Positions 4,716 to 28,540 of a stretch of 64,000 nucleotides of DNA are shown one piece after another. The notes under the pieces were generated by a model. The model ran no database searches. It was given only the letters and a program-made list of their open reading frames with translations, and was not told where the DNA came from. The translations under genes were made by a program, and so were the position numbers. Position 1 is the stretch's first letter; the number at the start of each line of letters is the position of its first letter. This DNA comes from Rosellinia necatrix (lineage: Eukaryota > Ascomycota > Sordariomycetes > Xylariales > Xylariaceae), in the NCBI GenBank assembly GCA_021209875.1, contig JAGYVD010000006.1:2108001-2172000 (forward strand), written 5' to 3'.

Positions 4716-5618
4716 CTAATTCCAGAAGTCGTCATTGTCTGTATACCTATTCCCGTTCATTACCCTCGAGTTGCCTGTAGCTTTGACAGACCCGATGTAG
4801 CCTCGACTGCGGTCATTTGGGAGTACAGCTCCTTTCCAGGTGGAGGTCACGGTATTGCCTTGCATGAGGCGAGCATTATCGGAGAGTGATATGGAACCTA
4901 TCTTGCCACCCCCCTCCTCGGTCATGACGAGTGCCTTGGCCTTAATTACTTCGTCCACCCCGTCAGCGAGGCCGTGGACTACATTGAGGATCTCAGCTAG
5001 GCTCTCCGAGTTGCCGTCGCGCCCACCGATGATTTCCTCCAACTCCTCTCGTGCTAGTTGAGCACTGCGCTTCTCGGGGGCTGGGAATATTTGCTCGAGG
5101 AGGTCAAGAAGCTTCGTAATATCTTCGACCAGCCTGGAGCAGCGCTCCCTATCGTGGAGCACCCAGCGCACTTTCTTGATAAAGCCGACCCCTTTTTGCC
5201 GGCGCTCTGCAATTTTGCGCATACGCTTGTTGAGTTTTCTCAAGAAGGCATTCATATCAGCCTCTGACAACGCTGGTAGACCCTCTTCAGGCTGCTGCCC
5301 GCCCGAGTTGTAAGGGCGGCTGACATTCTCTGAGTCTTCAAAGAGCATTGAAATCTTCTCAATCGCTTGCCGAGCGTTGGCGATGTCAGCGGGTCTGGCG
5401 TCCGGTTGGGACAGCGAGAATGGCGGATCGGACGTGACGCCGACGGCAGCACCCCATCGTGAGAGGCGCAACTGCAATAGAGTGAGTGTTAGGCGGTGCG
5501 TCTCGAAGTCCTTGCCAAAGCGCCGGCTGAGCTGCACGTAGTCGAAGGCCTCCACGCAGGAGCTAAAAGCGGAGGCGATGCCCACGGCGCCTGATACAAC
5601 ACCGAACACTTCAGCCAT
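4716..5618 (-). CDS. HET-S-like protein: HeLo domain plus two amyloid repeats, 300 aa
   Basis: A single uninterrupted frame from ATG at 5,616-5,618. Residues 1 to about 225 are a HeLo (prion-inhibition and propagation) domain, with the glycine- and alanine-rich N-terminal helix that in Podospora HET-S inserts into membranes (starts MAEVFGVVSGAVG), then FDYVQLSRRFGKDF and RLSRWG. The C-terminus carries two pseudo-repeats of the HET-s beta-solenoid motif: residues about 239-260 (core DNARLMQGNTVT) and 274-295 (core GNSRVMNGNRYT), followed by the aromatic DDFW tail. Length matches the 289-residue family founder. By family knowledge, amyloid templating of the tail activates the HeLo domain, which permeabilises membranes in heterokaryon incompatibility or NLR-triggered cell death. 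Whether this allele is killing (S-type) or inert (s-type) cannot be read. A NACHT remnant lies divergently about 1.2 kb away. Confidence 0.9.
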   Translation of the reverse strand: MAEVFGVVSGAVGIASAFSSCVEAFDYVQLSRRFGKDFETHRLTLTLLQLRLSRWGAAVGVTSDPPFSLSQPDARPADIANARQAIEKISMLFEDSENVSRPYNSGGQQPEEGLPALSEADMNAFLRKLNKRMRKIAERRQKGVGFIKKVRWVLHDRERCSRLVEDITKLLDLLEQIFPAPEKRSAQLAREELEEIIGGRDGNSESLAEILNVVHGLADGVDEVIKAKALVMTEEGGGKIGSISLSDNARLMQGNTVTSTWKGAVLPNDRSRGYIGSVKATGNSRVMNGNRYTDNDDFWN

Positions 5619-9924: not shown

Positions 9925-11061
9925 TTAAGAGCGGACCAGGGTGAGGCCGTAGGTCGACAGAATCTCGTTGACGGGCTGGAAGTAGGTGGTGCCGCCGCTG
10001 GTGCAGTCGCCGGAGCCTCCCGAGGTGACACCCTGGGCCTGGGCACCAGAGTAGAAAGAACCGCCGGAGTCGCCGGGCTCGGCGCACACGCTGGTCTGGG
10101 TGAGGCCGGTGACGCGTCCCTGGGAGTAGGTGACGGTGGCGCCGAGGGCGCGGACGGTGCCGCAGTGGACACCGGTGGTGGAGCCGGAGCGGCAGATGCT
10201 GGCGCCGACGGCGGACGCGGTGCTGCCGGACACGGGCAGGTTGGCCGAGCCGTAGCCGTTGATCTGGCCGGTGAGGGTGGTGCCGCTGACGGTGCGGATG
10301 TAGCTCATGTCGGCGCTGCCGGGGAAGACGGAGCCGGCGAATGTGCCCAGGGCCGCGCCGCTGGTGGTGGTGGCAGAGCTGCCTACGGTACCGCAGTGGC
10401 CGGCCGAGACGAAGCCGGTGGTGACCGAGAAGCCGACGGAGCACCGGGCGGCGTTGTTGATCAGGTAGGCGTCGCCACCGTGGACCGTGGCGAAGGTGCT
10501 GGGCATCGCCTCAACTGTGCGAACCTCGAACTCGGAGGCGGAGAGACCGACCTGCGAGGCCAGGGCCTCGGCGTGGGCGGTGCTGCCGGAGAGCGCCTCG
10601 AGGACGAGCTTGTTGGAGGCGAAGTCGACGTAGTAGGCGGCGATGCCATCGGCGGAGCCGGCGGCGAGGGTCTTGGCTTGGCTGATGTCCTGCTTGTCAA
10701 GTGCCAGCTTGGCCTGCTCAAGCTTGGAGAGGCTGTTGGGCATGATCGCGGGCGTGGCACCGGCAGCGGTGACCTGGGCGGCCAAGGCCTCGTCGGTGAC
10801 ACCGACGTTCAGCGTGGTGCCGTCCTCGGCGATCCAAGCGCCAGCGAAGGCGTCACCGGTCGAGGTGCGGAGCTGCTCGATGACATCGGCGGCCCAGTGC
10901 TCCCGGGCGACGCGAGCAGAAGCCTGCTTGGCGTCCAGGCCCAGGTCGCGCTTCATGGCAGCCAGGATCTCGGGGTGGAGGCTGGTGGCGACCGGCGAGG
11001 GAGCACCGTAGACAACGGGCAGGACGGCGGCCAGGAAGGCGAGGAAACTGGTGAGCTCCAT
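9925..11061 (-). CDS. secreted streptogrisin/chymotrypsin-like serine protease (S1E type), 378 aa
   Basis: One intronless frame from ATG at 11,059-11,061, much richer in G+C than its neighbours. Residues 1-20 are a signal peptide. Residues about 21-185 form a pro-region of the alpha-lytic/streptogrisin kind (folding chaperone, removed on maturation). The mature chymotrypsin-fold domain begins near 186 and has the triad His222 (SAGHCG), Asp251 (SADMSYI) and Ser332 (EPGDSGGS). Six cysteines fit the streptogrisin disulfides (207-223, 290-300, 326-353). The family is actinobacterial; a very similar preproprotein, CHY1 of Metarhizium, was described as a lateral acquisition from an actinomycete. 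The missing introns and high G+C agree with that origin. It probably digests extracellular protein of host or prey. Confidence 0.93.
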   Translation of the reverse strand: MELTSFLAFLAAVLPVVYGAPSPVATSLHPEILAAMKRDLGLDAKQASARVAREHWAADVIEQLRTSTGDAFAGAWIAEDGTTLNVGVTDEALAAQVTAAGATPAIMPNSLSKLEQAKLALDKQDISQAKTLAAGSADGIAAYYVDFASNKLVLEALSGSTAHAEALASQVGLSASEFEVRTVEAMPSTFATVHGGDAYLINNAARCSVGFSVTTGFVSAGHCGTVGSSATTTSGAALGTFAGSVFPGSADMSYIRTVSGTTLTGQINGYGSANLPVSGSTASAVGASICRSGSTTGVHCGTVRALGATVTYSQGRVTGLTQTSVCAEPGDSGGSFYSGAQAQGVTSGGSGDCTSGGTTYFQPVNEILSTYGLTLVRS

Positions 11062-12839
11062 GTCTGATGTTCTGAGGACACTACGTGGGAGACAGGGGCG
11101 TTGATATTGTAGGAGCTGGGTCAGGAGCGAGATGAGTCGATGATCTACTGAAAACTTCCGGACTGGATGAGAGCAAGTCTGCCCATTTATACTTCTCCCG
11201 GCCTCAGCATCGTGACTTGCATCACGCTCCTGTTGTCGCTATCCAAAACAGAGCCCTACATTAGACCAGCCGGCGCTAAATCTCTCCTTCCTAATCCGCC
11301 TCCATCGGCCGGGGGCGATGTTATCGCCGACCTTGATAGTATCGGCAGGACAGTCCTCAAAAGGCACGTAGCTTTGGATAGATAAGCTGCTGCAACTCCA
11401 GCCCGGCAGCACAGCCCCCCTTTACGTTTAGCAACATGTCAAGTCAGGTCCAGAGCATCGGCCTCGGATCAGCCGTATTTTCCAATTCGGCAGGCCGACG
11501 GCGACGTTCTGGCCCCGCGTCGTCTCTGGCCCATACACGGGGGCGATCGACGCCTTCGCCTTCGCCCGCAAGATTCAGGCTGCCGGCGGCGGACACTAGC
11601 AGGCCATCTCACATGGACCCCCAGCCACCGTCCACGGTGATATGCGTCCCCAGCCTTACGGAGAACGTTACCATACTCCGGTCATCGTCAATCATGCTGT
11701 ATAATACGTGCTCTGTGCTGGGAGCAGCCCGGCGGCAACCTGCATGCCCGTTCTTCTGCTAGGCCAGGAACTCAACAACAGTCGAAGGACCAGACCAGCC
11801 AGGTGACCATTTGCTCACCGTGGACCGTGGGCTCGCTCGGCGCCCTCTCCAGGCTGGCATAATGGTCGATAGGCCGAAAATACCCAATTAGGAAGGCAGG
11901 GGAATTTGGTTTCTTGGTGTTTGTTTTCTACACCTTCTTGGAGGTAGGCTGGTCAGGGCGGCCAACCTATCAACCGCTGTAACCCCGTATCTCGATGTCT
12001 GGCGGGCATCGAACCGCCTACTCGTATAATCCGAAGTTTGTCTGCTTATGCCTTCACAACTTCCGTTCCAGGTTGTTGCCAAGATGTTGGGTATGCGCTA
12101 TAACACGCTGTACGGTACCTTCTCTTTCAGGCCATGTCGCAATTGAGCCAATTCGCGGAGAATCACACTGCCGATAGCTAATTGCCACTTGCAGTTACAA
12201 ATGGGCCCTGATTAATAGCCGCCCGACGGTGCCAAGATCCCCTAGACCGGGACCTACCTGGAGAAGGGTCTCCTCCTGCCCCCTTCCCCTGTTGACTTGG
12301 CCTAAGCTTGTCATGTGATCCAGCATCCGTGCACACAACTAATATCTACTAGCCATTTTCCATCTAGCCAATTTCCGAAAGTTCTCCATCTTGCTCTCAA
12401 CAGACAGATCAGTCTCCAACTAGGAGCTTTGTCTTCTTACAGTAAATGTTACAAACTAACAACGTGGCCGGCCACCTGACAAGCCAAGCCCGGGGGAAGA
12501 ACCAACTAAGAAGAGGGGCTGAAATATGAGCGAGCGACTGCTGTAGTAAGAGGCCACGGTTCTACCCCAGGCAACGGAACCATCAAGCCCAAGAGCCACT
12601 CTACGGCCTCTACCCCTCCTCTCCTGAACAGTGCTACGCATATTTTGGATACCTATCTTCGCCCCCTTCACTGACACCGAATACCTTAAGCGTACTGGCT
12701 AGCGCTATATCTTGCATTTGCGCTGTGCCAAGCCGACAATAATCACATCTCCGGGCCCATTCCCTTTTGTACCGCAGGATTTGGGCAAGTTGATATAGGA
12801 CTCTTACCTGTGGGATCCTACCTGTGAACATTACCGGCA
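11062..12839. other. intergenic, about 1.8 kb, no confident gene
   Basis: The left part is the protease promoter. A G+C-rich patch at about 11,440-11,860 has coding-like composition, and one plus frame reads without stops for about 50 residues, but no family is recognisable and stops follow. It may be a worn-out gene. The remainder shows short overlapping frames only. No tRNA or other RNA gene was found. Confidence 0.45.
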
Positions 12840-13803: not shown

Positions 13804-15010
13804 CTACTCCCTCGGCTTCACTCTCACCTTTCGAGCTGTGTTTGTGTCGTCCTCTGAATACGCGACCACGGTCCATCGCTCATCAAACGGCTTGCTCTTG
13901 TCGACGAATCGCAGGTCGGTAGCGACGCGGATTCGACCTGTCTCGGACTCGTTGATGGCGCCAGCATGGACGGTGTAGGGAGTGTGGAAGAGAACGTCAC
14001 CGGCCTCATAATTTCCCTTGCGTCATTATGAATTAGCAGAGCCGAATAACGCATCTGGGGGGGAAGCGATGTATGCCTACCACGAGCCAAGACCGTGACC
14101 AGTTCTCGCCGAACCTAGCCGCGTTCTTATCTAGCCACCCTCCCTTCTCCATATTTCTATTGAAAGCGGACAGCCTCTCCTCGTCTGGCAGGTCGGCGTT
14201 CATCCGCGAGAAGTCCTCCTCGTACCTCTTCCCGACATCGTGCGCGTGGTCGAGGTAGATGAGCCCGCCGCCCTTGACGTCGATGTCCCCGAGAGGCACC
14301 CAGGCTGTAACGCTTGTGGGGGGGCCAGCGCGCAGGAATATTTGGTCGTAGTGCACAGGCGTGGTCTCGCCGCCGGGCACGGAGCAGCGCAGCAGCGAGC
14401 GCGGTAGGCACCATGGCTGCTCAAAGCCGCACAGCCGGCCCACAAACGGCTCCAGCGCGCGCGCCGCGCCGTCCTTAAAGTCCCGGTAGAATTGCGCGTC
14501 GTGGCTGTGCACCGCCCTCTCCACGAAGACGCCGTCATCGCTGAGCCCGTGCGCCACCCGCAGTGCCCCAGGGAGCAGGAACTGCCGCCAGTCCGCCTCG
14601 GGCGAGAAGATCCCGTCCACCGGGTCCGTTCCCGGCTTCAGCATGCCGGTGCCCTCGTTCACGAAGCTTAGATACTCCCCCCGGGCTTTGTTGACCTTGG
14701 CTGGGTCTAGTAATCCCTTGACCTGTATCCATATTTAATAACGGGAACCCCCACGAGGAATAAGGCGGCGATCAAAAAGAGGGTTAGGGGGACGCTTGAG
14801 ATTTCAGGAACATACCCAGAGTACGCCATCTTCGGTGTATCGTCGTTTCAACTCTTCGATGGGGGTATCTGTCACGAAAGGTGTTAGGTACTTAACCCCC
14901 GTGATGGCAGAGCCGGATCCGTGAAGAGTCAGGCCATCGTCATTGAGTCGAATTGGCTCAAATGTAGGTTGGCTATGAGGAGCCGAGTTAAGTTGGAGGA
15001 CCTCGGCCAT
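13804..15010 (-). CDS. phytanoyl-CoA dioxygenase (PhyH) family enzyme, 349 aa
   Basis: Three exons on the minus strand (15,010-14,816; 14,722-14,081; 14,016-13,804), introns of 93 and 64 bases, all GT...AG, giving 349 residues. The start is the ATG at 15,008-15,010 (MAEVLQLN). Fe(II)/2-oxoglutarate ligands are visible: His189-x-Asp191 in TPVHYDQIF and a distal His296 in YTVHAGAINES, followed by Arg307/Arg309 (GRIRVATDLRF) that would hold the 2-oxoglutarate carboxylate. AWVPLGDIDVKGGGLIYL is the usual PhyH core strand. The fungal family mostly hydroxylates or desaturates small metabolites; the substrate cannot be told. It lies at the edge of the regulator/transporter group and points the same way as the next three genes, so a shared role is possible but unproven. 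Confidence 0.88.
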
Positions 15011-15569: not shown

Positions 15570-17735
15570 CTATCCGTTTGTGTTGTAGCCCACCACCATC
15601 TCGTCAAGTAGCGAAGCATCAAAGAAATTAGCCCACTGTCCTTGGTCCGAGCTCTCATTTCCTAGAACTTCAATCTGGGCCTCTGGGGAACTATCAAATA
15701 TTAGAGGACAACCCCGGTACGACCCGTCCCGAGCCCTCACCGTCATCTCCAGCAATTCTTTCAAGGTGGCTAAATATCGCTGACCTACAGGGTCGCCATC
15801 AATTCCTGCAGGAAATTCCGCCATGGCATCCTCTGCTGTCTTGCGTGCCGTGATGTCCTCCGGCCAGAGATAAGAGTACATGAGAAGCGTACCAATCGAA
15901 GCAAACTGCATGTATGTAACGAGCCAAAATGTTCGCGAGAATAGGCCGCGTTGGCTTAGGTAATGGCATTCAGAGACTACGGTTTTGGCAGCTTCAATGC
16001 ACTTCTCATGACATGTCTTGATCCATTGGATATTAGAAGTTTGCTCCGCGTTTCTGTTGATAGCGTGGAGTATGAATGGCCGATAGAGAAGGAGACTGGC
16101 GTGCGCAGACATTAGCTTTAGTGTACACATCTGCCTCTGCGCCGTGACAGAAACCGCGGACGGGGGCAAAACTATGTAGTTAAGATACGGTGGCAGGCCA
16201 TCTTCCCAATCTCTTAGCCCCTTTTCAAAGACCGTGGCGGATGCGTGGAGTTGCGAGACGTCTTGCAATCTGCTAGCGGGGGTATAGAACCCTCGTAGTA
16301 TCTGCCCTAGGATGCGAGCAATACGAGCGTAATGGACCAATCCAGCAGATGAACAAAATAACCCGTCTTTTGTAAGCTTGCACTTTGACTCATCGATGTC
16401 TTCGTCGTTGGCCAGCGCACACTCGTCTTGGTCAATGTCGTCGTCGTGTATGGCCAGCGGCCGTCCAAACATACTACTTAGAATCCTGTCGTTGATGTAA
16501 ACGCACCAGAACAATCTCTTACGGTACTCATATCTGATGCAATCCGCATCCGCCGGCCGAGAGCGGCGATGGAGCCCGAGGGCTTGAACGTGCCGCACGA
16601 CAATACCAAAAGCCGACCAGGCTTCGTGCATGCGGGCATGGTTTAATAGAAAATGAATAATCAGTAACCTAGTCTGTGATGTAGCCAGAGTGATTAAATC
16701 TGGCGTCTCTTCGAGCTGGGCATGAGCCACGTCATAGAATCGGACGCTGTGGCGATCAGCTATCACGAAGAAGTCTAATGGAAGTGGTATAGCTATCTAC
16801 TGTACCTTGCCGAGTGTCCAAAAAAAGGGCTTGTATGATCAGAATAATGCGAGCCAAGCGCAAGCACAATGTATGCAAGCGCTAGATCGTCTGGTCTGCA
16901 CTCTTCGCCGCTATATATCTTATCTACTATATGGATCAAGCTGGGTTTATGCACGAGGCGCGACGTTGATAGACCAAACTCAAAATATCTTGCGGTGAGC
17001 TGGTCTGCGATGTCTTTGGGGGGAAGGACTGCTGCAAGACCCGCAGGACATGGTAAAGGGTCGTCGGGAAAATCAATGGACATGGCTGGTAAGTTCGCGA
17101 GTCTCTTCTTTGCCAACTGCATGAAAGCGAATTCCGAGGCACCGCCGTGGATATGGCCATTCTTGTCTTCTTGTAGTGATTCATCCGGCGCGTCCGGGTT
17201 CGTGACGTTGCTGCTACAGCTGGCGCCCCGACTATGGCTGTGATGACCTTGATTCCCCCCATGGCCGCAGTCGCTAGGAAGTTGGGGCGGCTGAAACTGG
17301 GTTGTGTTGGCGGACACAATGCTGAGGGTCGGAGAAGCATTTAAGTTCCTCCGCGGCTGGGTCCCTTCAAGTGCCTGGGTCGATACTATAGGCATGTATT
17401 GGCAAGATTGGCCGTTCTGTTCACACCGGATGCATGGTTGGTGACCTGAGCAACGAGTTTTCTTCCTACACAGACCCGTATGAGTTGAACGTACATGGTA
17501 AAACAACGAAGCAAAGAGGGACACTGTACTCTCGGCACGTTATACAGGCGTTTCGTATTTTTGAAGCTGTTGGGCCTCGATTAGCGCCATGGGTCCATTC
17601 CCTTTTACGCTTCCTAGGACCTGAATGCTTCATCGTTGGCGCCCGATAAGAGATGAAGGTCAATGATTCGGGAGATTTAGTTGCTCTTGATTCTTCCCTC
17701 GAGGTTGGGGTTTCACGGCTCGCCGACGGTGTCAT
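15570..17735 (-). CDS. Zn2Cys6 transcription factor with fungal-specific regulatory domain, 686 aa
   Basis: Exons on the minus strand: 17,735-17,530, 17,465-16,801 and 16,759-15,570. Intron 1 (64 bases) splits the zinc cluster; intron 2 is short (about 41 bases by the only junction that keeps the frame) and is the least certain point. The DNA-binding cluster has the canonical spacing C64-x2-C67-x6-C74-x5-C80-x2-C83-x6-C90 and follows a basic stretch (PRKRKREW). The middle and C-terminal parts show the Fungal_trans domain: LALAYIVLALGSHYSD, then HEAWSAFGIVVRHVQALGLHR and YEYRKRLFWCVYINDR. Such proteins are pathway regulators, often of the genes beside them. Here the neighbours are two transporters and an amino-sugar enzyme, so local control of that group is a reasonable inference. 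Confidence 0.9.
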
Positions 17736-18222
17736 AGATATTGGTTGAACTACTTGTACATACGGCGATATGAGGCGAAACTTGGCGATAGAGAAAATAT
17801 GGTGAACGAGGAGAATGTAGTCTGTTCTACCTAACTAAGCCCCCTTTCCTAATTCTCCGGTTGGCTAGGGGCATATACCCCTGTCCTGAGCTAAAATTCA
17901 CGTCAAGCTGCATTACGCCGATCTGGAGGTTCATGGGGTTTGCGCCCTATACCATACCGTACAGTTAAGCATCGTGGAATCTCTTCTCCACGTTCTCGCA
18001 AAGTTAAACCCCGCACCCCATATTTTTACCCCATGTCTCGGGATATTGATCACGGCAGATCTATGACCAGGTTTATTGCTACGTTTGGATCAAAGTATTT
18101 CCACCAATAGCTAAAGCTTATGTATGTAAACTATAAGACGGGACTAATGATGATATTATGATTCTCGTGGAGCCAAAATGCTATGCGACAACTCCCATTC
18201 AATCCCAGAAATACGCACCATG
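17736..18222. other. intergenic (regulator promoter side)
   Basis: About 490 bases upstream of the regulator's start and downstream of the MFS transporter's stop. No gene or repeat is seen. Confidence 0.5.
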
Positions 18223-19992
18223 TTAATAAATGTACTCAAAATTAGGATTCTCCTTATCTGTTAGATCTTTAAACGCAGTCTGGTTAAGTGTTTCGAGAGT
18301 GCCGTCGAGGCGCATTTGCTCCCGTACCTTCTCTTTGCGCTTATTCTCCCACATAAAAGTGTATCGCAAAATAAAGAACAGTGCGAGTTCGAGAAAGTTG
18401 GCGACCAGTAGCGACCCGATTCCGAGGTTGTAGCTTGGCGCCTGTTCGGATTTATAGAAGAAGGGACTGACGATGTTTCCAAGACAGGCGCCCAACCACA
18501 CCATACCACCTGTGATCATCTTCTTGGATTGACCACCGGTATTTCCGATGATGACTGAGAGGCAAATAACGAACGATGCTTGATAGGAGCCCGTTAGATA
18601 GCTAAATGATTAAAATGTTAATTTGTTGATCATCTCGCGCTTATTGCAGACGATGGTTAATGAGGGTCTTACAAGCAGATCAAGCGACCAACATAGGCAT
18701 CAGCAGGGGCTAGAAGGAATCCAAAGGCGCCTGCAATAGTTGGGAGCATAAAAATTGCGCTCGCAAGGGTACGGCAATTCTTGGGCATATAGTGATTGCA
18801 TACAGCCCCGAGGCCAATCCAAATGACGACGAGCACGCCTTGGGGAATACCCAGAAGCGCTGTATGCAGAGTATCGAATCCTAGGCCTTGGATGACTAGG
18901 GTTGAAAAGTTCGAGATGCCCCCGTTTGGAATATTTCCTACAAAGCCTAAGAAGAAGAAGAGCCAGGTCTTGTAGTCGAGGAACGCTTCCATGATCTGGC
19001 TCCAGTTGATACGGCGCTGTTCGATGCCGGTCTGGTTCTGCCGCATGCGTGCGATCATCATCAGGCGTTCCTCGTGGCTGAACTCACTGAATGTAGCTGG
19101 AGAGTTTGGTACGAGAAAGAACAGGACGATAGCCCAGAACGTGCAGAAGGCACCAATAATCAGGAACTCGTAACGCCATGACTGGAGCGCACCCTTTATA
19201 TTTCCGATACCATAGCCTACCCAACGCCATATTAGCTATCGGTTGCTGCGCGTAAATACGGGGGTAGACAAACCGATGAGGCCGCCCCCTGCAACGCCGA
19301 CACCGTTAAAAGAATACCATATAGATATGCGGATCGGTTGTTCGGCTCTGGTGTAGTACATGCTTGTGATAAGCATGAATGCCGGATCGGCAATGGCCTC
19401 GAAGGCTCCAGAAAGGACTCTTAGCGCCGCTAGAGTGCCAAAGTTCCGCGATGCAGCCTGTGCCATCAGGAGTGCCCCCCACAAGAAAATATTGGCGGCA
19501 AGGTACCAGCCCGGAGGGGAACGCTGCATAATCAAGTTCGATGGGATGGCCCAGGCAAGCCAACCAAAGTAAAAGAGCGATGATAGCCATGAATAATCGA
19601 CTGAGGTGAGGGCTAAGTCGGTCTTGATACCGAAGATAGCAGCATAAGACAGGGTCGTCTTATCAACATACTGTTATAGCAATGACAGTTAGATACCAGG
19701 GTGATTGGAATATTGACTTGTGATATAGTTAGATATAACCCCCTAAACTCACGTAGAAGAAGTAACAAATGCTCAGCAATGGCAAAATTCTGTAGTCTAG
19801 CTTTCGCCTCAACTTGGCCTCTTCTACTTTGTCAAAGTGCTCGTCGGTAGGGTAGCGAAGAAGTGCCTCGGTGTAGATCCCGTGATGTGGATGGCGAATG
19901 TCGGGCGGTATGCTATCTTTCTTGACATCTTCAACACAGACGTCTTCGGCGGCGGCCAAGCCGTTGGATTTACCCTGTTCGAGGCGAGACAT
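18223..19992 (-). CDS. MFS transporter, allantoate permease (Dal5/ACS) family, 519 aa
   Basis: Four exons on the minus strand: 19,992-19,753, 19,670-19,274, 19,216-18,673 and 18,601-18,223; introns of 82, 57 and 71 bases, all GT...AG, give 519 residues. The start is ATG at 19,990-19,992 (MSRLEQGK); a frame extending further upstream begins with GTG only. Family marks: LRRKLDYRILPLL before helix 1, YVDKTTLSYAA, then SLFYFGWLAWAIPSNLIMQR, LRVLSGAFEAIADPAFMLI and YLTGSYQASFVICLSVI; twelve hydrophobic helices are evident. The family imports small anionic or acylated compounds (allantoate, nicotinate, biotin, pantothenate). Its place beside a MurQ-kinase gene makes an acyl amino sugar or its lactyl form a candidate substrate, by inference only. 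An apparent stop near 19,242 is intronic, so the gene is intact. Confidence 0.9.
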
Positions 19993-20205
19993 AATGGCCA
20001 AGGTTATTATGTGTATCACAAACGCATACCAAATCGGGATATTTATAACAATAGTTATGGCCGCCGTCTCACACTCGTTACCTGGGGTCCATTAAGGACT
20101 AGTGTACGTAGGGTAAAGACCACTATCTAGAAGCAAATGCCCGAAACACTGCTTTTATCATGACCCTTCAGCTACCAACAACAACCCAGCACAATCTCAG
20201 CGCTT

Positions 20206-20280
20206 CTGGGGATGGGGTAATGGGGACATTCCCCGCGTTGTCGCTCTATGTTGTGGGGGTTCAGTGGGGGTTTGGTGGGG
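20206..20280. promoter_or_regulatory. cluster of CreA-type SYGGRG sites upstream of the MFS gene
   Basis: Within 75 bases upstream of the MFS start there are five matches to the carbon-catabolite repressor consensus SYGGRG: CTGGGG at 20,206, GCGGGG (reverse strand) at 20,231-20,236, and GTGGGG at 20,253, 20,264 and 20,275. Clusters of two or more are what CreA usually needs. Matching is by eye and the tract is generally G-rich, so some matches may be chance. A run of 16 or so A follows at about 20,370. Confidence 0.4.
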
Positions 20281-20467
20281 AAGCTTTCCGGGGGTATACC
20301 GTCTTTAGAGCTTCTGAGGATATGCTTTTCCCTGTTGTCTATCGATTGTTTCCCGAGGTGACTTTCGAAAAAAAAAAAAAAAAACATCTACGCTCATTCG
20401 CTATTGCTATCGAGGCTACATAATTCGTGCGCACGTGAACACCAAGCCAAGAAAGAGCGTTCCTTGG

Positions 20468-22017
20468 TTAAATATCTTCATCATCAACAGCCTTAGGGAT
20501 TGGTTCCGGCTTCCTTTCTCCGTATGCGGCCTCTGATTCGGCTGTTGTGTGGTCTGAAACAGTCCATACAGTAGGCAGCACGACGAGCAAGGAACCGACA
20601 CAGAGGCCCCAGTTCATACCCAACTGCGTCAAAGCGCTGACATGAAGCGCGTTGATTCTCCACGCCATGGCGCCGCCTGTAGCCTGGAACGTTTTGTATG
20701 CCCCGACGAGGATGGCGGCTCTTGCTGAGCTGTTCGACTCCGTGCCGATAAGCCAGTATGCAAAGCCCTGCCACAGCGCGTCGTAGCCACCGTAAAAGAT
20801 GTACAATATGATGGGCCCGGTGGAGATATTTCCCTGCGTGTAGTCGATGTCCTGGATGAGGCCGGCGGCGATGCGCTTGTTTTCCCACAGCTGGAACGCA
20901 TACCCACCTCCCCAGATGGTCGTGCCGGTGACAACAAGGACGGCCCAGCCAATGCGGGCACGTATGCTGCGGCGAAACCAAGGCATGTCGAGAAGCAAGC
21001 CTATGATGAGGCCACCAAGCATCTGCGCTATCCAGTACAGTGCGCCGTTCAGGGAGCGTGTACGGATGTTGAAAGTCCGGCCGTTGACTTCGTTCTGCTG
21101 GTAGCTGTAGAAGACGTTGGCAGAGTAGAAGAGGGGGATCATGCAGGCTACACGCCACTTGGTTATGGTCTTGATGGCCATGGTGAGGGTGCCTTTGACG
21201 GTCCGCCTCTCAGTCTCGACGGCATTGTGCAATTGGGCAAGTTGGATCCGGGACGGCGAGCAGATGAAGAAGCCGAGGAAGTAGCCGAATACCATGATGA
21301 CAAGTAGGGCAATGTATGTCGAGTCGGTGACAGTTCCGCTCTTCGAATGGTAGTTCAGGCCAAAAGACACGAGCGATCCAATGCCACCACCAAGGTTGAA
21401 GATGATCCAGAAGACCGCGATGGCTCTCCCCTTCTGTGACTCGTCCACGTACGTGGTCATGATAGCACCATGCACGATCCAGATGAAGGAGGCACCGATG
21501 CCCAGGATGGCGCCCGAGGCGATGACGAAAGCGCCGTTCGCATAATGGTTGAAGTGCAGCAGGCTGCCGGTATAGAGTGCGTACGTCCACCCACCGATGA
21601 GGAAGCAGATACGTGGGCCGACCCAGGAGAAGATTGGACCTGCGATAAAGAGAGCTGTAGCGGCGGTGGTAGAGAGCAACGCGACAGTGGCGTTAGCAGC
21701 GACGGTCGGGTCGACCTGGCCGGATCCTCCGATGCCACTTAGAGCATTATATATCTGCTCAGGTCAGTATAGTTATGTCTAAACCCTTTTTTTTTTTTTC
21801 CTTTATTGGCACCGAGTGATGGGATTCCAGGGTTACGTACGCCTGGGAGACAGAAGCAGATGGCGCTGATGAGCAAAATCTGCGTCCACGGATGGGCATA
21901 GAAACCAACCAACTTAGATGAGTGCGGTCGCATGAGCCCATTGCCTTCCTGCTCAGAACGGGGACGGAGAGTCGCCGGGTCGTACTCCGGAGATGTCTCT
22001 TTTGCTTCATCAGACAT
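20468..22017 (-). CDS. UNC93-like (DUF895) MFS-fold membrane protein, 487 aa
   Basis: Two exons on the minus strand, 22,017-21,841 and 21,754-20,468, with an 86-base intron containing a T-rich run; total 487 residues from MSDEAKETSPEY. After a soluble N-terminus come WTQILLISAICFCLPG and IYNALSGIGGSGQ, the hallmark first-loop segment of fungal DUF895/UNC93-like proteins, then about ten more hydrophobic helices and an acidic tail (KAVDDEDI). Fungal members are uncharacterised transporter-like proteins. The gene is divergent from the MurQ-kinase gene and shares its 0.7 kb upstream region, an arrangement often seen for co-expressed catabolic genes. A role in amino-sugar uptake or efflux is inference. 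Confidence 0.88.
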
Positions 22018-22724
22018 GCTGTGCGGTCTATTACCATCTGATAGCTGTATGATAGCTGTATGGTAGCTGTAGCCTGGAGGCTATTAGGAACGGCATCGAC
22101 CCGACAGTGCCCGCCCTACTTCTATCTTCTATGGGCGAGCACAGTCCCATATAGGCCCAAGGAAGAGGCCGATCGCCAGACTCCGGAACGTGTGGTGACC
22201 CATAGCTAGCCAGATACGTTACATGCACGAAGGCCACTCACGTCGATCGTATCCTGTTGTGGAGTGTCGCAGATATATTTCCGATGCGACCACACGCTGT
22301 GCGGAATGCAAGCGGTGCTTGATTGACGTAGCACCCATCGAAGCATGAGGAATCCTTCCGCCCCATCTCATCAAACCCCACCGCCGCCGTCATCCCCTCG
22401 TCGTCCCCCCTTGCGGTGATAGGCGCCCGCCGAGCTGCGGGGAAGGACGGTCAGGCGCCAGACCGCAAGAAGTGGCGAATACCCATCAATTACGGAAAGA
22501 AACTCAATGGCGGCGTGGAATAGGATCCTACCGACATCGGGTCAGCGAGCTTCATCGAGTCTCGTGCAGCTCCCTTTCCGGCCTCGTGCTGTCGATGGGC
22601 CGGCTCGCGTATCACGATGACCAACGAGTTCATAATGAAGCCCTCGTTGTCTCCCATGTCTCGGCGCTTGTGCTCACCGCGGACGCAAGCCAACGGCACG
22701 AAGCCAACGTAAGCGGCTTGAGCC
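22018..22724. promoter_or_regulatory. divergent promoter between UNC93-like and MurQ-kinase genes
   Basis: A 707-base shared upstream region between two start codons pointing apart. It holds individual matches to the SYGGRG motif (for example GTGGGG on the reverse strand at 22,377-22,382 and GCGGGG at 22,437-22,442). Short frames here overlap and have no domain. Shared control of the two genes is inferred from geometry. Confidence 0.45.
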
Positions 22725-24975
22725 ATGGAGGCCCCCGTTGTTCAGCTCGCCGGCTTGCAGACTGAGCATCGCAACACCCGGACGGCCACTATCGACAAAG
22801 TATCGACCCTCGAGCTCTGCCAGATCCTCCACCGAGAAGACCGCGAGATACCAGACGCGGTCGAGCGATGCATCCCAGTAATCGCGCAAGTTGTCGACGC
22901 CTTAGCCAAGCGCGTTCGTAATGGCGGCCGGGTTTTCTATATCGGTGCTGGAACTAGCGGAAGGTATGAATCTAGCCCTGCGGCACATACCTAACCTTAG
23001 GCGGTGGTGGCCATAGATCTGTGAAGCCAATAATGGTAGCTAACCCACGAGACAATCTAGGCTAGGCGTCCTTGACGCATCCGAAATCCCCCCTACCTAT
23101 TCGTCACCACCGGGCCAGTTCGTCGCATTGATAGCAGGCGGCGACGGCGCCCTCCGCCGTGCCAAAGAAGGCGCTGAAGACGACAGGGATGGCGCTGAGT
23201 CCGACTTACGATTGTTCAACCTAGACCCGAATCTCGACTCGCTAATTGGGATCGCATCTTCTGGTCGCACGCCCTACGTTCTAGGTGGGCTATCTTACGC
23301 GAAGTCATTGGGAGCTACTACTGTCGCGCTCGTTTGCGTCTCCCCTTCGGCGGCCAAGGCCGAGGGCAATGCCGACTACCTCATCTCCGCTGTCACAGGG
23401 CCGGAGGCGGTCACTGGCAGCACGAGGATGAAGGCCGGGACGGCGACGAAATTGATCTTGAACATGATCAGCACCGGCATCATGATTAAGCTTGGCAAGA
23501 CGTACGGGAACATGGTGCGCGCCCTGCCCGGCTTATTCCGTGTGGGTAACGCATCCCAGATAGCTGACTTGGCGCAGATGATCGACGTCAAGGCCACCAA
23601 CCTCAAACTTAAGCAACGAGCTAGGAACATCCTTCGATTCGTCGGCGGCGATGCCTGTACGCAGTCCGACACCAAATTAGACCGCATACTCGAGAACTGC
23701 CATGGGAGCGTCAGGCTCGCGGCCGTCGTGATTGTGCTAAAGGTGCCAGTGGCGGAGGCGGAGGACCGGCTTCAACAGAATGACGGCGTCCTCGCTCGTG
23801 TGTTCGGGGAGGCTCGCAAGGAAGACATGCTGCCACACAATGATGATAATAAACTAGTACTCTGCGTGGATGCGGGAGGTACTAGCTGCAAGGCTGTAAT
23901 TATGTCTCAAGACGGAGAGATGGGGATGGGTATCGCTGGTCCTTGTAATGTGTATGTACCCCTCCACCCCCTCAAGCCCCCTTCCAATCTCCTCCTAACA
24001 GCTAACAATCTCAGAACCAACATCAGTGTTGATACCGCCATTTCCACGATCTCCGACGCCATTCAGGGAGCCGTGGATAACTGCGAGATTACCGGGGGAC
24101 GTCGGATGGAATCCGTAAAACTATCCGCTGCCTGGGTTGGCATGGCTGGTTATGGCAGGCTGTCTCCGTCTACGGAAACCCACAGTGCGCTATCGCAAAT
24201 CCTCGGTCTCCCCCTGGGCGCGAAGCTGAAGGTCACTACCGATATCGACCTCCTCCCGACTTCCATGGCTGACCAACCAAACTTGGACTCGGTGGTCGTT
24301 ATCGTGGCCGGGACAGGGTCAAGTGCTATGAGCTATGCGAAAGCGGACGGCCAGTTTCGACGAACACACCGTGTTGGAGGATGGGGCCATTTTCTCGGCG
24401 ATGATGGCTCAGGCTACGGTATAGGACGCGAAGCACTCCGTACAGCGTTATATTCGTATGATCTCTATAATATTCAAGCGAACAGCAGTTCTGCTCCAGT
24501 TACAGGGGCACTATCACCCCTCACGCAGGCAGTTATACGGCACTTTGAAGAGCTCTACCCTGAGTCCACATCAGGAGATCTTCTCAGCACAATCCTCGCC
24601 CCTAACCCGGCTTCCCACGGGAATGGAGGGGCTGATCTCGCCACGACCAAGCGGATCGCGGGCGTGGCCAAGGTTGTCCTTTCCACGGCGAGCTACGATG
24701 TCGAGGCAAAGCGAATTATTGAAACGGGGGCATTGAGTCTTGTAGATCTCGTGGCGCTATTGATTCGCACTGGAAGAATCAATCCCGCGAGATCAGGCCT
24801 TGTGCTAGCCGGCGGAATGATGCGAGACGAAATGTATAGAACGACACTGGTAAAGGCACTGGAGGCGAAGTGTGGCACATTCCAGCGGACTGAGCTTGTA
24901 GCAGAGCCAGCTATTTTGGGGGCACGATATATGCTACGTCACCTAGTCCCGACCCAGATTGATATCTCTACTTAA
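22725..24975 (+). CDS. MurNAc-6-phosphate etherase (MurQ) fused to BadF-type amino-sugar kinase, 696 aa
   Basis: Exons 22,725-22,963, 23,061-23,951 and 24,015-24,975; ATG in good context (gccATGG). Residues 1 to about 340 are a MurQ-type SIS domain: [41 protein letters not shown] and VTGSTRMKAGTATKLILNM. The catalytic glutamates of E. coli MurQ (83 and 114) align with Glu88 and Glu119, so the etherase looks active, unlike the regulatory relative GCKR. Residues about 344-696 are a BadF/BadG-type kinase: phosphate loop VDAGGTSCK (349-357), VAGTGSSAMSY, GGWGHFLGDDGSGYGIG and VLAGGMMRDE. The closest functional models are MurK of Clostridium (MurNAc/GlcNAc kinase) and GlcNAc kinase. Expected chemistry: phosphorylate MurNAc, then split the lactyl ether to GlcNAc-6-phosphate and D-lactate. 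Fungal relatives are often labelled glucokinase regulator family. The 63-base second intron has no stop and keeps frame. Confidence 0.92.
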
Positions 24976-25667
24976 TATAATAGAACCCTCGACGGCGTAG
25001 TCACACTTGAGACGATACCTTCAAATGTTATGCTGACGGCCAAGGAAAGCCTGACATACATGTAGAGGCAATGGCTACTGGCCTAATGCTTTACCTAGCC
25101 TAATAACTGCAAGTAAATTGAACTTAAGCTCTACACGTGTACCATCAAGTTACTCGTCAGCTGTTCCTCTTTTTCACGTCCTCCTAATAATACGTTGGAA
25201 TAACTCCGGTGTACATGTCCGAGGGTGTTTGGGCTACATAATTCACTTCAAGATGCGATTTATGGCAGGTATACAACTCAATAGGATATACTTAACCTGG
25301 GATCTCCGTACACTGGACTACTGCGTGAGTCTTGGAAAGGAAGCTGTAAGAGAGATCAATAAGTAGTCAAGTGCCCCGTTTCCCGCCCCGCATGCCCATG
25401 TAGTAAATGTAACCTTACGCCCCTACCAGACTAGGTTGAATCCTTACCTTCTCAATGAAGCGAACTAACCATCACGCCACGGCGGCAGTGACCCCGCAAC
25501 TATAGTTCGATGACGGTAAAGACTAGTATTCTAGACTTCACAGATATATGTTAGGATGATGGCATTTGCTAGCTGAACTGTGGTTGCCCTTGTTGCCTTT
25601 CGTTGTTCCCATGTGATCGGTGGAATAGCATCACCTTTACAGCCACTTGGTAGATATACCGCCCACA
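24976..25667. other. intergenic between MurQ-kinase and hydrolase genes
   Basis: About 690 bases joining two tandem plus-strand genes; it must hold the hydrolase promoter. An 82-residue frame at 25,118-25,366 has no recognisable feature. A stretch near 25,430-25,500 vaguely resembles a tRNA on the minus strand but does not fold properly. Confidence 0.5.
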
Positions 25668-26999
25668 ATGACTTTCATTATTCGGAATATGTTTTTTGCT
25701 ATTAGTGTTCTCATCGCAGCATCACAAGCATCAGCAGAGACTAAATGGCAGAAAGATGTGTTGCAATATGGCACACCTGAGTCTGTGGGGATGCTGTCCA
25801 AGCCATTAGAGGATATGGTGGCCAACTTAACCCATTTCACAGAGGCAAGAAACTGGGGAACGAAAACGTCGAACCAGATTGTTCCCATTGAGCCTGGTGG
25901 TGTGACTCTTGTTGCACACAAGAGCGTGATTGTCAGTCACTTTGCATTTGGAAAGAGGAACCTGTGGGCTTCAGTAAACGGCTCAACGGGACAAATGCTC
26001 CCTCTAAGTGAGAGAAGCGATGCGACAACCGACACTATTTACGATATGGCCAGCTTAACTAAGCTCTACACGACTATAGCGGGACTTCGCTGCATCGATG
26101 AGGGTTTGATCACCCTCGAAGGCAGAGTCGCCAGTTATCTGCCCACGTTTGCTGCGAATGGCAAGGGGAACATCACAATTCTACAACTAATGACACACAC
26201 AAGCGGCTTCTCGGCGGATCCGAAGATTGGTCTGTGGACGCCTCAATACCCGACCTACGAGTCGCGCATCCAACAGATTCTCAACGAGACTCTCCAGAAC
26301 ATTCCGAACTCGACGTATCTCTACTCCGATATTAATTACATGACACTGATGCTAGTGATCGAAAGCGTTACCGGCAAGCGACTCGACGACGTCATCTATG
26401 AATACACCTCGATGATGGGAATGCAGGATACGTTCTTCAACCGGGGTAACGTGGAAGGTCCCGCGTTTCCATTCTACGATAGAATGGCCACACAGGAGTT
26501 CCAGGCGGCGGTGCTCGGCGACGGGGAGCCCCAGCGGCCGCAGCCAGTCAGGGGGACTGTGCACGACGAGAACGCGTGGGGCCTCGACGGCGTCTCCGGC
26601 CACGCCGGGCTCTTCTCCACCGTCCTGGACACGGCGCGGTTCTGCCAGATGATCCTCAACAACGGGACGTACGGCGGCAAGCGAATTCTCTCGCAGGGGT
26701 CCGTCGATCTTATCTTCACCAACTTCAACGCCCGCTTCGGCTCAGGCGCCTCTCACGGCGCCGGGTTCGAGCTCAACCAGTACTACACCGCGGGCCCCAT
26801 GGCCAACCCCCTCTCGGCAAGCCATACGGGATACACTGGCACGTCTTTGGTCATCGACCGCGCAAGCAATACGATGTTCCTGCACTTTGCCAATAGGGTT
26901 CATCCCTCTAGGAACTGGTCTAGCAACAACATTGTCAGGGAAACTCTTGGGGCATGGGTTGCGACTGCGCTCGGGAGAAAGGTGGCATTTCCTTCCTGA
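25668..26999 (+). CDS. secreted S12 (class C beta-lactamase-like) hydrolase, AmiE/YfeW type, 443 aa
   Basis: Intronless, from ATG at 25,668-25,670; a longer frame would start at TTG. Residues 1-23 are a signal peptide (MFFAISVLIAASQASA). Catalytic motifs: Ser129-x-x-Lys132 in YDMASLTKLYTT, Tyr219-Ser-Asp in YLYSDINY, and HTG at 386-388. The stretch GTVHDENAWGLDGVSGHAG (296-313) followed by LFSTV is typical of the bacterial AmiE (YbbE)/YfeW branch. B. subtilis AmiE is an exported N-acetylmuramoyl-L-alanine amidase that frees MurNAc from muropeptides, and yfeW lies in the E. coli murQ-murP cluster. The adjacent MurQ-kinase gene repeats that neighbourhood. Base composition turns markedly more G+C-rich from about 26,460 to 26,810. 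Esterase or transesterase activity (LovD-like) remains an alternative. Confidence 0.88.
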   Translation: MTFIIRNMFFAISVLIAASQASAETKWQKDVLQYGTPESVGMLSKPLEDMVANLTHFTEARNWGTKTSNQIVPIEPGGVTLVAHKSVIVSHFAFGKRNLWASVNGSTGQMLPLSERSDATTDTIYDMASLTKLYTTIAGLRCIDEGLITLEGRVASYLPTFAANGKGNITILQLMTHTSGFSADPKIGLWTPQYPTYESRIQQILNETLQNIPNSTYLYSDINYMTLMLVIESVTGKRLDDVIYEYTSMMGMQDTFFNRGNVEGPAFPFYDRMATQEFQAAVLGDGEPQRPQPVRGTVHDENAWGLDGVSGHAGLFSTVLDTARFCQMILNNGTYGGKRILSQGSVDLIFTNFNARFGSGASHGAGFELNQYYTAGPMANPLSASHTGYTGTSLVIDRASNTMFLHFANRVHPSRNWSSNNIVRETLGAWVATALGRKVAFPS

Positions 27000-28540
27000 G
27001 TGCCAGTTAAAAGATACATTGAGTACAGTATTTGCTATGCTGAGATTAGAATTCCTGGGAATGAAGAAAAATCACGTTCAGGATTGACAAAGCGTGTGGT
27101 GAATAGAGCAACGTCATCAAGGCTCCTCTAATGGGCATATAAGAGAGATGGTTTTGGCTAAGTTAAGTGCTATAAACATTTCAACATTGCTGTATATCAT
27201 TTCTTTGATCGAATCAATTTAGCCATTCTTCGACGTAACACTCAATTACTATTTTCTTTCGTTAGGACCTCCAGCCCTTCGTTAGAGGTGTTGGGGACGA
27301 TCCTGTTCCCAACGGGGACAGCAGCTGTCAACTATATCGAGTGATTGACTTTATTATAGAGATTTAAACACCAATCTTACCGCCTTAGATCCGAAATTGA
27401 ACTTTTGGAGGGACACGTGACAAGTTTTTGCTGTTGAAGTACTTGAGAAACCACACTCTAACCCCCATTCTAGGTCACCGAGTCTAGTTGGATCAATCCC
27501 TTTATACTCCGTCAAACTTAGTAAAACTTCCCAACTAGAGAGAGGTTTCAAATTATTCGTTATTGCAACGTAACCTGAGCTTATCTCTAGATGTTTATTA
27601 GTTGGACATGATTTATCCTGTTGGGATATAGGCTGATCGCTGAGATATAGGAAAAAGGAGCCGTAGTTAGGGTTAGAGTAACGAATTAGAATGATGGGAG
27701 ACGTGTTATGGAGTTGATAGACAGCTCTTCTATTGAATAATCCACCCATTCTGCCTTAGCTTGGACTCGTAGCCAGTCAATCGAGGATCCACTCCTCAGA
27801 ATAGAGAAAGCATACTCGTGAAGATTCATCTCTGGCTCCCCACGTTGAGAAGGCGCATAGTCAGTTAACTGTGTGCTGGGCTCAATCATCAAGGAGAGTG
27901 GACTAGTTGCCAGAATGACCTCGCGCTAACGCATAGCTGACAATTGCGAGAAATAGGAGTGAAAAAAAGCCTCCCTACCAGCACTAAATCACCATTCACT
28001 TCGTAGAGAGGTAGAAAAGTGGTGTGACGAAGAAAAACTCGTATGCACTAAACGCGACGCGGATAGAGCCCTGGAGGGGGTATTTACCGGTGGGGTCTAG
28101 TGGACGCTAGCCTAGTTAGGTGTAGAACAAACTATTCAGCACCTAACCAGAAAATGTACAAGTCCAAGGAAAAAATGACAACATTGTCAAGTTCTTACCT
28201 GTATAAAATGCCGAAAAAGGAGAGAGACAATGCCCTATATCGCTCCGGGTGCCATTTAGCCCAATATTAGGAAAGGAAGGTCTTCAGTAAATTCCCCTAG
28301 TCAACCGAGATATGCACTAGAGAGAAGTCACTTCCAACAACTCAAAACGATGATAGAAAGAGAGACGAGAAAACTATATTTCCAAAAGAATTTCTAGGTG
28401 CGTATTTTTGGTCTACGTATCGCCCCTGGGCACGAAGGGCTCAATTTGTGTAATGTGGGGAAGAAAAATCGTTATCAGATCCTAAATAATGCCAAAAAGA
28501 AGATTCAAAATGAGGTCTCATAAAAAATATAGCCATAGCT
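27000..28540. other. gene-poor flank before the transposon nest
   Basis: Contains the terminator side of the hydrolase gene and the doubtful frames at 27,354-27,889. A short perfect stem (GTTAGGTG with CACCTAAC) occurs near 28,116-28,151. Composition is still near that of the gene-bearing half until about 28,500, then falls to almost pure A+T. Confidence 0.5.
27354..27889 (-). pseudogene. two overlapping open frames, possibly one broken gene
   Basis: On the minus strand a frame from ATG at 27,887-27,889 runs about 67 residues (EPEMNLHEYAFSILRSGSS...) and overlaps a second frame (27,749-27,354, about 131 residues, ending SKAVRLVFKSL). Both have reasonable residue composition and a one-base shift would join them, so a frameshifted gene is possible. 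No good splice sites for an intron were found and no family is recognised. Confidence 0.25.

Follow-up and report, generated by a model that had tools for sequence, protein, structure and literature searches.

Why would a fungus carry genes that look fit to digest N-acetylmuramic acid (MurNAc), a sugar of the bacterial cell wall? MurNAc catabolism is established in bacteria and, to our knowledge, fungi make no peptidoglycan. The question is raised by a 64,000-nucleotide stretch of the Rosellinia necatrix genome (49.1 Mb in 12 contigs; contig C4, positions 2108001-2172000), referred to here as the window, in which a sequence-only reading had claimed five side-by-side genes: a Zn2Cys6 regulator, a major facilitator superfamily (MFS) permease, an UNC93-type transporter, a fusion of MurQ etherase with a BadF-type kinase, and a serine hydrolase. 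All five were present and intact within window positions 15570-26999. Their reading frames are open after intron removal, with splice sites picked by eye, and the Pfam domains fit each gene. The regulator and both transporters lie on the minus strand, the MurQ-kinase and hydrolase on the plus strand. We consider the cluster probably a MurNAc catabolic pathway, with a probability of roughly three in four.

In the pathway that we propose, GH25 lysozyme and N-acetylglucosaminidases would release MurNAc-peptides from bacterial walls, and the AmiE/YfeW-type hydrolase would cut the peptide from them outside the cell. MurNAc would be imported by the UNC93-type protein, perhaps together with the sialin-like MFS permease. 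Cytosolic MurNAc would be phosphorylated at C6 by the BadF half, and the MurQ half would strip the lactyl ether to yield N-acetylglucosamine (GlcNAc)-6-phosphate and D-lactate. Our best reading is thus an ascomycete MurNAc catabolism that came from bacteria and uses a fused enzyme together with a transporter outside the phosphotransferase system (PTS). Every activity and substrate in this scheme, as well as secretion, transport direction and Zn2Cys6 control, is a prediction from homology, gene neighbourhood and conserved residues.

The MurQ-kinase fusion

The fusion gene (22725..24975, plus strand) encodes 675 residues in exons 22725-22963, 23061-23514, 23578-23951 and 24015-24975, and matches the Pfam models GKRP_SIS_N and BcrAD_BadFG. 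A third intron, 23515-23577, is in frame and holds no stop codon; it was taken as an intron because its 21 residues break the match to MurQ chains and are missing from R. necatrix P0001. Scored on the 696-residue model that still includes these 21 residues, the MurQ half reached 310 bits against TIGR00274, above the curated equivalog cut-off of 302. E88 and E119, which we take to be the catalytic glutamates of MurQ, align with MurQ chains and are invariant in 46/46 fungal sequences. The BadF half scored 79.8 bits against PF01869 (cut-off 31.5), and its ATP motif, GTGS and catalytic Asp are conserved in the same 46 sequences. Its GGWG pocket stretch is as in MurK (8zo3), lacking a bulky Glu or His; GlcNAc is also compatible with this stretch.

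Animal glucokinase regulatory protein (GKRP) is derived from the MurQ fold, and the fungal protein could in principle be a comparable sensor or regulator, whose MurQ-like half binds sugar phosphates while the kinase half acts as a GlcNAc kinase, MurNAc not being a substrate. GKRP is a regulator with two SIS units and no fused kinase, whereas the fusion joins a kinase to a single SIS unit. The Pfam matches to GKRP_SIS_N and SIS_2 overlap there, and the search gave no match in the fusion to the second-unit model, GKRP_SIS_2. In addition, the MurQ half resembles MurQ chains far more than GKRP, both among solved relatives and in the fold of the R. necatrix orthologue, and the neighbouring genes correspond to those of bacterial murQ loci. 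With one SIS unit, the etherase cut-off exceeded and the glutamates retained, we do not favour a GKRP-like regulator and judge it very unlikely. A weak match to a second MurQ, at C7:224 kb, was discarded; by eye, its frame is a glutamine-fructose-6-phosphate transaminase.

Gene neighbourhood in fungi and bacteria

Protein searches with the MurQ-kinase, hydrolase and UNC93-type protein gave 7179, 5339 and 602 matches over threshold, of which the best 120 each were used. Among these, the closest relatives of the MurQ-kinase and UNC93 protein were those of Rosellinia necatrix, 92% and 98% identical. We then counted the genomes in which locus tags of both genes of a pair were visible among the matches listed. 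MurQ-kinase and UNC93 tags were consecutive in 12/12 genomes (Xylaria grammica, X. hypoxylon, X. multiplex, X. curta, Nemania bipapillata, Cladophialophora psammophila, C. chaetospira, Capronia coronata, Talaromyces marneffei, Metarhizium humberi, Aphanocladium album and Conoideocrella luteorostrata). The hydrolase lay 1-3 tags from the MurQ-kinase in seven of nine (X. hypoxylon, X. multiplex, X. curta, N. bipapillata, Cadophora sp. M221, C. gregata and Zasmidium cellare), and four genomes showed the order hydrolase, MurQ-kinase, UNC93, the same as in the window. The fungal genera with these genes presumably cover several Pezizomycotina classes. Gene order around fungal MurQ-kinases had been named beforehand as the comparison able to overturn the cluster, and this comparison showed that the neighbourhood recurs. 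Since the neighbours recur in other fungi, the neighbourhood is more than chance. A metabolic gene cluster is expected to keep its neighbourhood between species; the conservation found here covers three genes of the five.

Shared contigs gave a second count, in which contigs were equated by identical size in bases. Those under 5 kb were excluded because one chance size equality (1676 bases) had turned up, which left 115, 107 and 97 sizes for the MurQ-kinase, hydrolase and UNC93 protein, respectively. The MurQ-kinase shared 35 contigs with UNC93 and 20 with the hydrolase, and 11 held all three. This evidence is weaker than that from the tags, because many of the contigs are large (8/35 are below 100 kb).

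To find bacterial counterparts, a species-level genome collection was scanned with fungal MurQ patterns and the best 80 loci were kept, all of which contain MurQ. In 19 of them, a homologue of the BadF kinase is found no more than 3 kb from MurQ; a hydrolase homologue occurs in 14, in 12 cases within 3 kb. No MurQ-kinase fusion in one open frame was found among these best 80 bacterial loci. In Bacillus sonorensis (L099), the order is MurQ, RpiR-type regulator, PTS EIIBC, hydrolase, GH3 and NamZ, presumably the Bacillus murQ-murR-murP-amiE-nagZ-namZ operon; the sequence-only reading had named murQ and AmiE/YfeW genes as neighbours in Bacillus and E. coli. The E. coli arrangement is murQ-murP-yfeW. 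Like the fungal cluster, the Bacillus operon combines MurQ with a regulator, a transporter and a hydrolase, the hydrolases being presumably exported in both and probably of one branch. The two bacteria phosphorylate the sugar on entry through a PTS transporter, whereas the fungus has an MFS-type transporter and a MurQ-kinase fusion.

Bacterial murQ loci with a BadF/MurK-type kinase (L063, L080 and L023, for example) hold the same parts as the fungal cluster, and 8 of the best 80 loci have both this kinase and a hydrolase homologue. In L063, one gene separates the BadF kinase from MurQ, and then come the hydrolase, a further gene, GH3 and AnmK; in L080, the order is hydrolase, BadF kinase, ABC-type ATPase (assigned by eye), MurQ, a protein of the glucosamine-6-phosphate isomerase family and an amidohydrolase. 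Kinase and MurQ are separate genes in such bacteria, in contrast to the fungal fusion. The murQ locus of a Clostridia metagenome-assembled genome (L053) contains a BadF kinase and two different hydrolases that match the fungal one.

A quick MurQ tree was built from the 80 bacterial sequences and 16 of 22 fungal ones, leaving out GKRP. The fungal MurQ domains form a single clade (SH-aLRT 99) inside a group (98) whose other members are mainly Planctomycetota, Chloroflexota, Acidobacteriota and Armatimonadota. The tree fits a single bacterial transfer followed by fusion, and it does not pin down the donor group. A bacterial murQ in a eukaryote genome is likewise described for Camponotini ants (PMC13320244); there, as far as the available portion of that report goes, it is a single gene from Mollicutes, with no fused kinase or cluster described.

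Literature searches, in which most subscription papers were not covered and an earlier mention of the fusion is possible, found no fungal MurNAc pathway or fungal MurQ-kinase. As far as these searches show, the combination of a eukaryotic host, a fused enzyme and an UNC93-type transporter in place of a PTS is new. Genes that look fit to free, import and digest MurNAc, in a neighbourhood that recurs in other fungi, suggest that fungi with this neighbourhood are able to feed on bacterial wall remains. That ascomycetes hold a widespread, dedicated MurNAc pathway, bacterial in origin and rebuilt with a fused kinase-etherase and an UNC93-type MurNAc importer, is in our estimate an even bet. A conserved fungal pathway would imply use of bacterial debris, since a fungus has no peptidoglycan of its own. 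If so, many ascomycetes would be equipped to take carbon and nitrogen from bacterial wall debris, a role would emerge for fungal proteins that currently carry the label glucokinase regulator or hypothetical, and fungal use of bacteria as food could be tested via single-gene deletion.

The hydrolase

The hydrolase gene (25668..26999, plus strand, no intron) encodes 443 residues with a signal-peptide-like start and the Pfam domain Beta-lactamase, and its product is a putative member of the murQ-associated AmiE/YfeW type. The best NCBIfam model is PBP4B (YfeW) at 151.7 bits, the second-best reaching 45.2. For comparison, the same model gives 746.6 for the B. sonorensis protein encoded in the amiE position, and 149 and 139.2 for other murQ-adjacent hydrolases. 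The active-site motifs Ser-x-x-Lys, Tyr and His-Thr-Gly correspond to S129, K132, Y219 and H386-G388, and are kept in 33/33 fungal sequences.

The gene product could also be an esterase, an acyltransferase or a beta-lactamase that serves a separate purpose (e.g. detoxification) and whose place next to the MurNAc genes has some other cause; the pathway would then comprise the MurQ-kinase and UNC93 only. The top fold matches are indeed macrolactin acyltransferase, EstG and further esterases, the PBP4B cut-off is missed, and the gene is distant from the MurQ-kinase in several fungi. Against such a separate role, it lies within three tags of the MurQ-kinase in the seven of nine genomes named above. 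Moreover, the best genome-wide match to the fungal hydrolase was the murQ-adjacent protein in 9/11 searched bacterial genomes having one, and the motif GxSGHAGLF was found in 15/15 fungal and 10/15 murQ-adjacent sequences, compared with 0/19 others. The hydrolase tree is compatible with either view: it puts the fungal sequences on the murQ-adjacent side (support 91/51), and the alternative placement is not rejected (see below). We regard a separate role as unlikely.

Several results weigh against the MurNAc pathway as a whole. The hydrolase score of 151.7 bits is below the PBP4B equivalog cut-off of 385, and the approximately unbiased (AU) test leaves unrejected a tree in which the hydrolase falls among other beta-lactamase-fold proteins (p 0.162). 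For the kinase half, in the fold of the R. necatrix orthologue, a Sulfolobus hexokinase equals MurK as top match. The hydrolase is distant from the MurQ-kinase in Aphanocladium and Conoideocrella and on a different contig in Coniochaeta sp. 2T2.1, Pleurostoma and Mariannaea. Hydrolase and UNC93 are on separate contigs in Sporothrix eucalyptigena, and 327 tags apart in Purpureocillium takamizusanense, one of the 11 cases of a contig shared by all three. R. necatrix is absent from the 120 best hydrolase matches (of 5339). Finally, searches of the genome for NamZ and AnmK gave no match, and NamZ is a part of the Bacillus operon. Without these two enzymes, the fungus would need lysozyme and N-acetylglucosaminidases to obtain MurNAc-peptides, and then the hydrolase to free MurNAc.

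Transport, control and downstream steps

The UNC93-type protein (20468..22017, minus strand, two exons, 487 residues; UNC-93 and MFS_1 in Pfam), transcribed divergently from the MurQ-kinase, is our candidate MurNAc importer. Fungal UNC93-type proteins may then be amino-sugar or muropeptide carriers, and the pathway, if real, would suggest a substrate for such transporters. We found no literature link of the UNC93-type protein to the GlcNAc transporter Ngt1, no Ngt1 sequence being part of the comparison. Against solved structures, its sole match was a solute-binding protein at E 0.015, which is not credible. Two paralogues were seen in the genome, one 44% identical (L014:4449-5732, C9:3289 kb) and one 23% (L015:3999-5402, C1:674 kb). 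The MFS permease (18223..19992, minus strand, four exons, 519 residues; MFS_1) is of the allantoate-permease/sialin type. Its best solved relatives are sialin (E 7.4e-8) and a D-galactonate transporter (E 6e-6), both carriers of acidic sugars; this kinship would suit MurNAc, an acidic sugar.

The regulator (15570..17735, minus strand, 680 residues; exons 17735-17530, 17465-16806 and 16746-15570) has the Pfam domains Zn_clus and Fungal_trans. The motif CGG-N9-CCG has seven matches in the window, including one between genes of the cluster, and as many occurred in 3/100 shuffles. UNC93 and the MurQ-kinase share an intergenic region of 707 bases (22018..22724, 58% GC), and CGG half-site pairs are too frequent in this GC-rich promoter to be informative. 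No 9-mer common to three of the four intergenic regions was found. The proposal of peptidoglycan salvage is supported by fungal neighbourhoods, bacterial murQ loci, sequence and fold for three genes, those of the hydrolase, UNC93-type transporter and MurQ-kinase; the permease and regulator are candidate members.

Genes for the steps beyond GlcNAc-6-phosphate were also sought. NagA, at C4:826 kb, scores 180.7 bits in the main exon, under the cut-off of 225.65, and NagB, at C4:807 kb, scores 295.9, above its cut-off. Nearby are an Ndt80-type regulator and a GH3-acetyltransferase fusion protein, the four genes lying in L012 and L013 (C4:817-837 kb) and L018 (C4:807 kb). In the part of the source available, this region resembles the RON1 GlcNAc cluster of Trichoderma (PMC4950302), likewise an ascomycete amino-sugar catabolism and the likely downstream route; that part names no MurQ, MurNAc kinase or AmiE-type hydrolase. 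The genome also contains FAD-linked oxidases, from a family to which D-lactate dehydrogenases belong, and one GH25 lysozyme with a signal-like start by eye.

These downstream genes bear on a further possibility, that the system serves to sense muropeptides as signs of bacteria close by, or to render them harmless, and not to feed the fungus, its kinase making or its etherase destroying phosphorylated muramyl compounds. Muramyl dipeptide (MDP) phosphorylated by NAGK is a NOD2 agonist, according to the accessible part of one report (PMC9477735), and MDP triggers Candida hyphal growth via Cyr1p, according to a table in the accessible part of a review (PMC6448482). Yet the genome has NagA and NagB, which would use the product, and sugar-catabolic genes stand among the bacterial loci with the same parts, which makes a signalling role quite unlikely next to MurNAc catabolism.

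Other features were noted around the cluster. About 4.5 kb to its left, a minus-strand frame (9925-11064) carries an alpha-lytic-protease prodomain (PF02983, E 8e-10), the mark of a bacterial-type secreted protease family, and between this frame and the cluster lies a PhyH-type dioxygenase fragment (14033-14734, minus strand; 29 bits, cut-off 22). Further left, a HeLo-domain protein (4716-5618, minus strand; PF14479, E 6e-46) has at its C-terminal end a weak HET-s prion-region match (21 bits, under the 32.2 cut-off) and is a possible cell-death amyloid protein. From window position 28500 to 64000 and on into the adjoining segment (L130, C4:2172001-2182000), at least 45 kb have 8-25% GC and hardly any long open frames. 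This AT-rich block, a candidate centromere or repeat-mutated island, sits near the middle of the 4.36 Mb contig and stops before C4:2192001 (53% GC); a further AT-rich stretch (17% GC) lies at C4:2282001-2292000.

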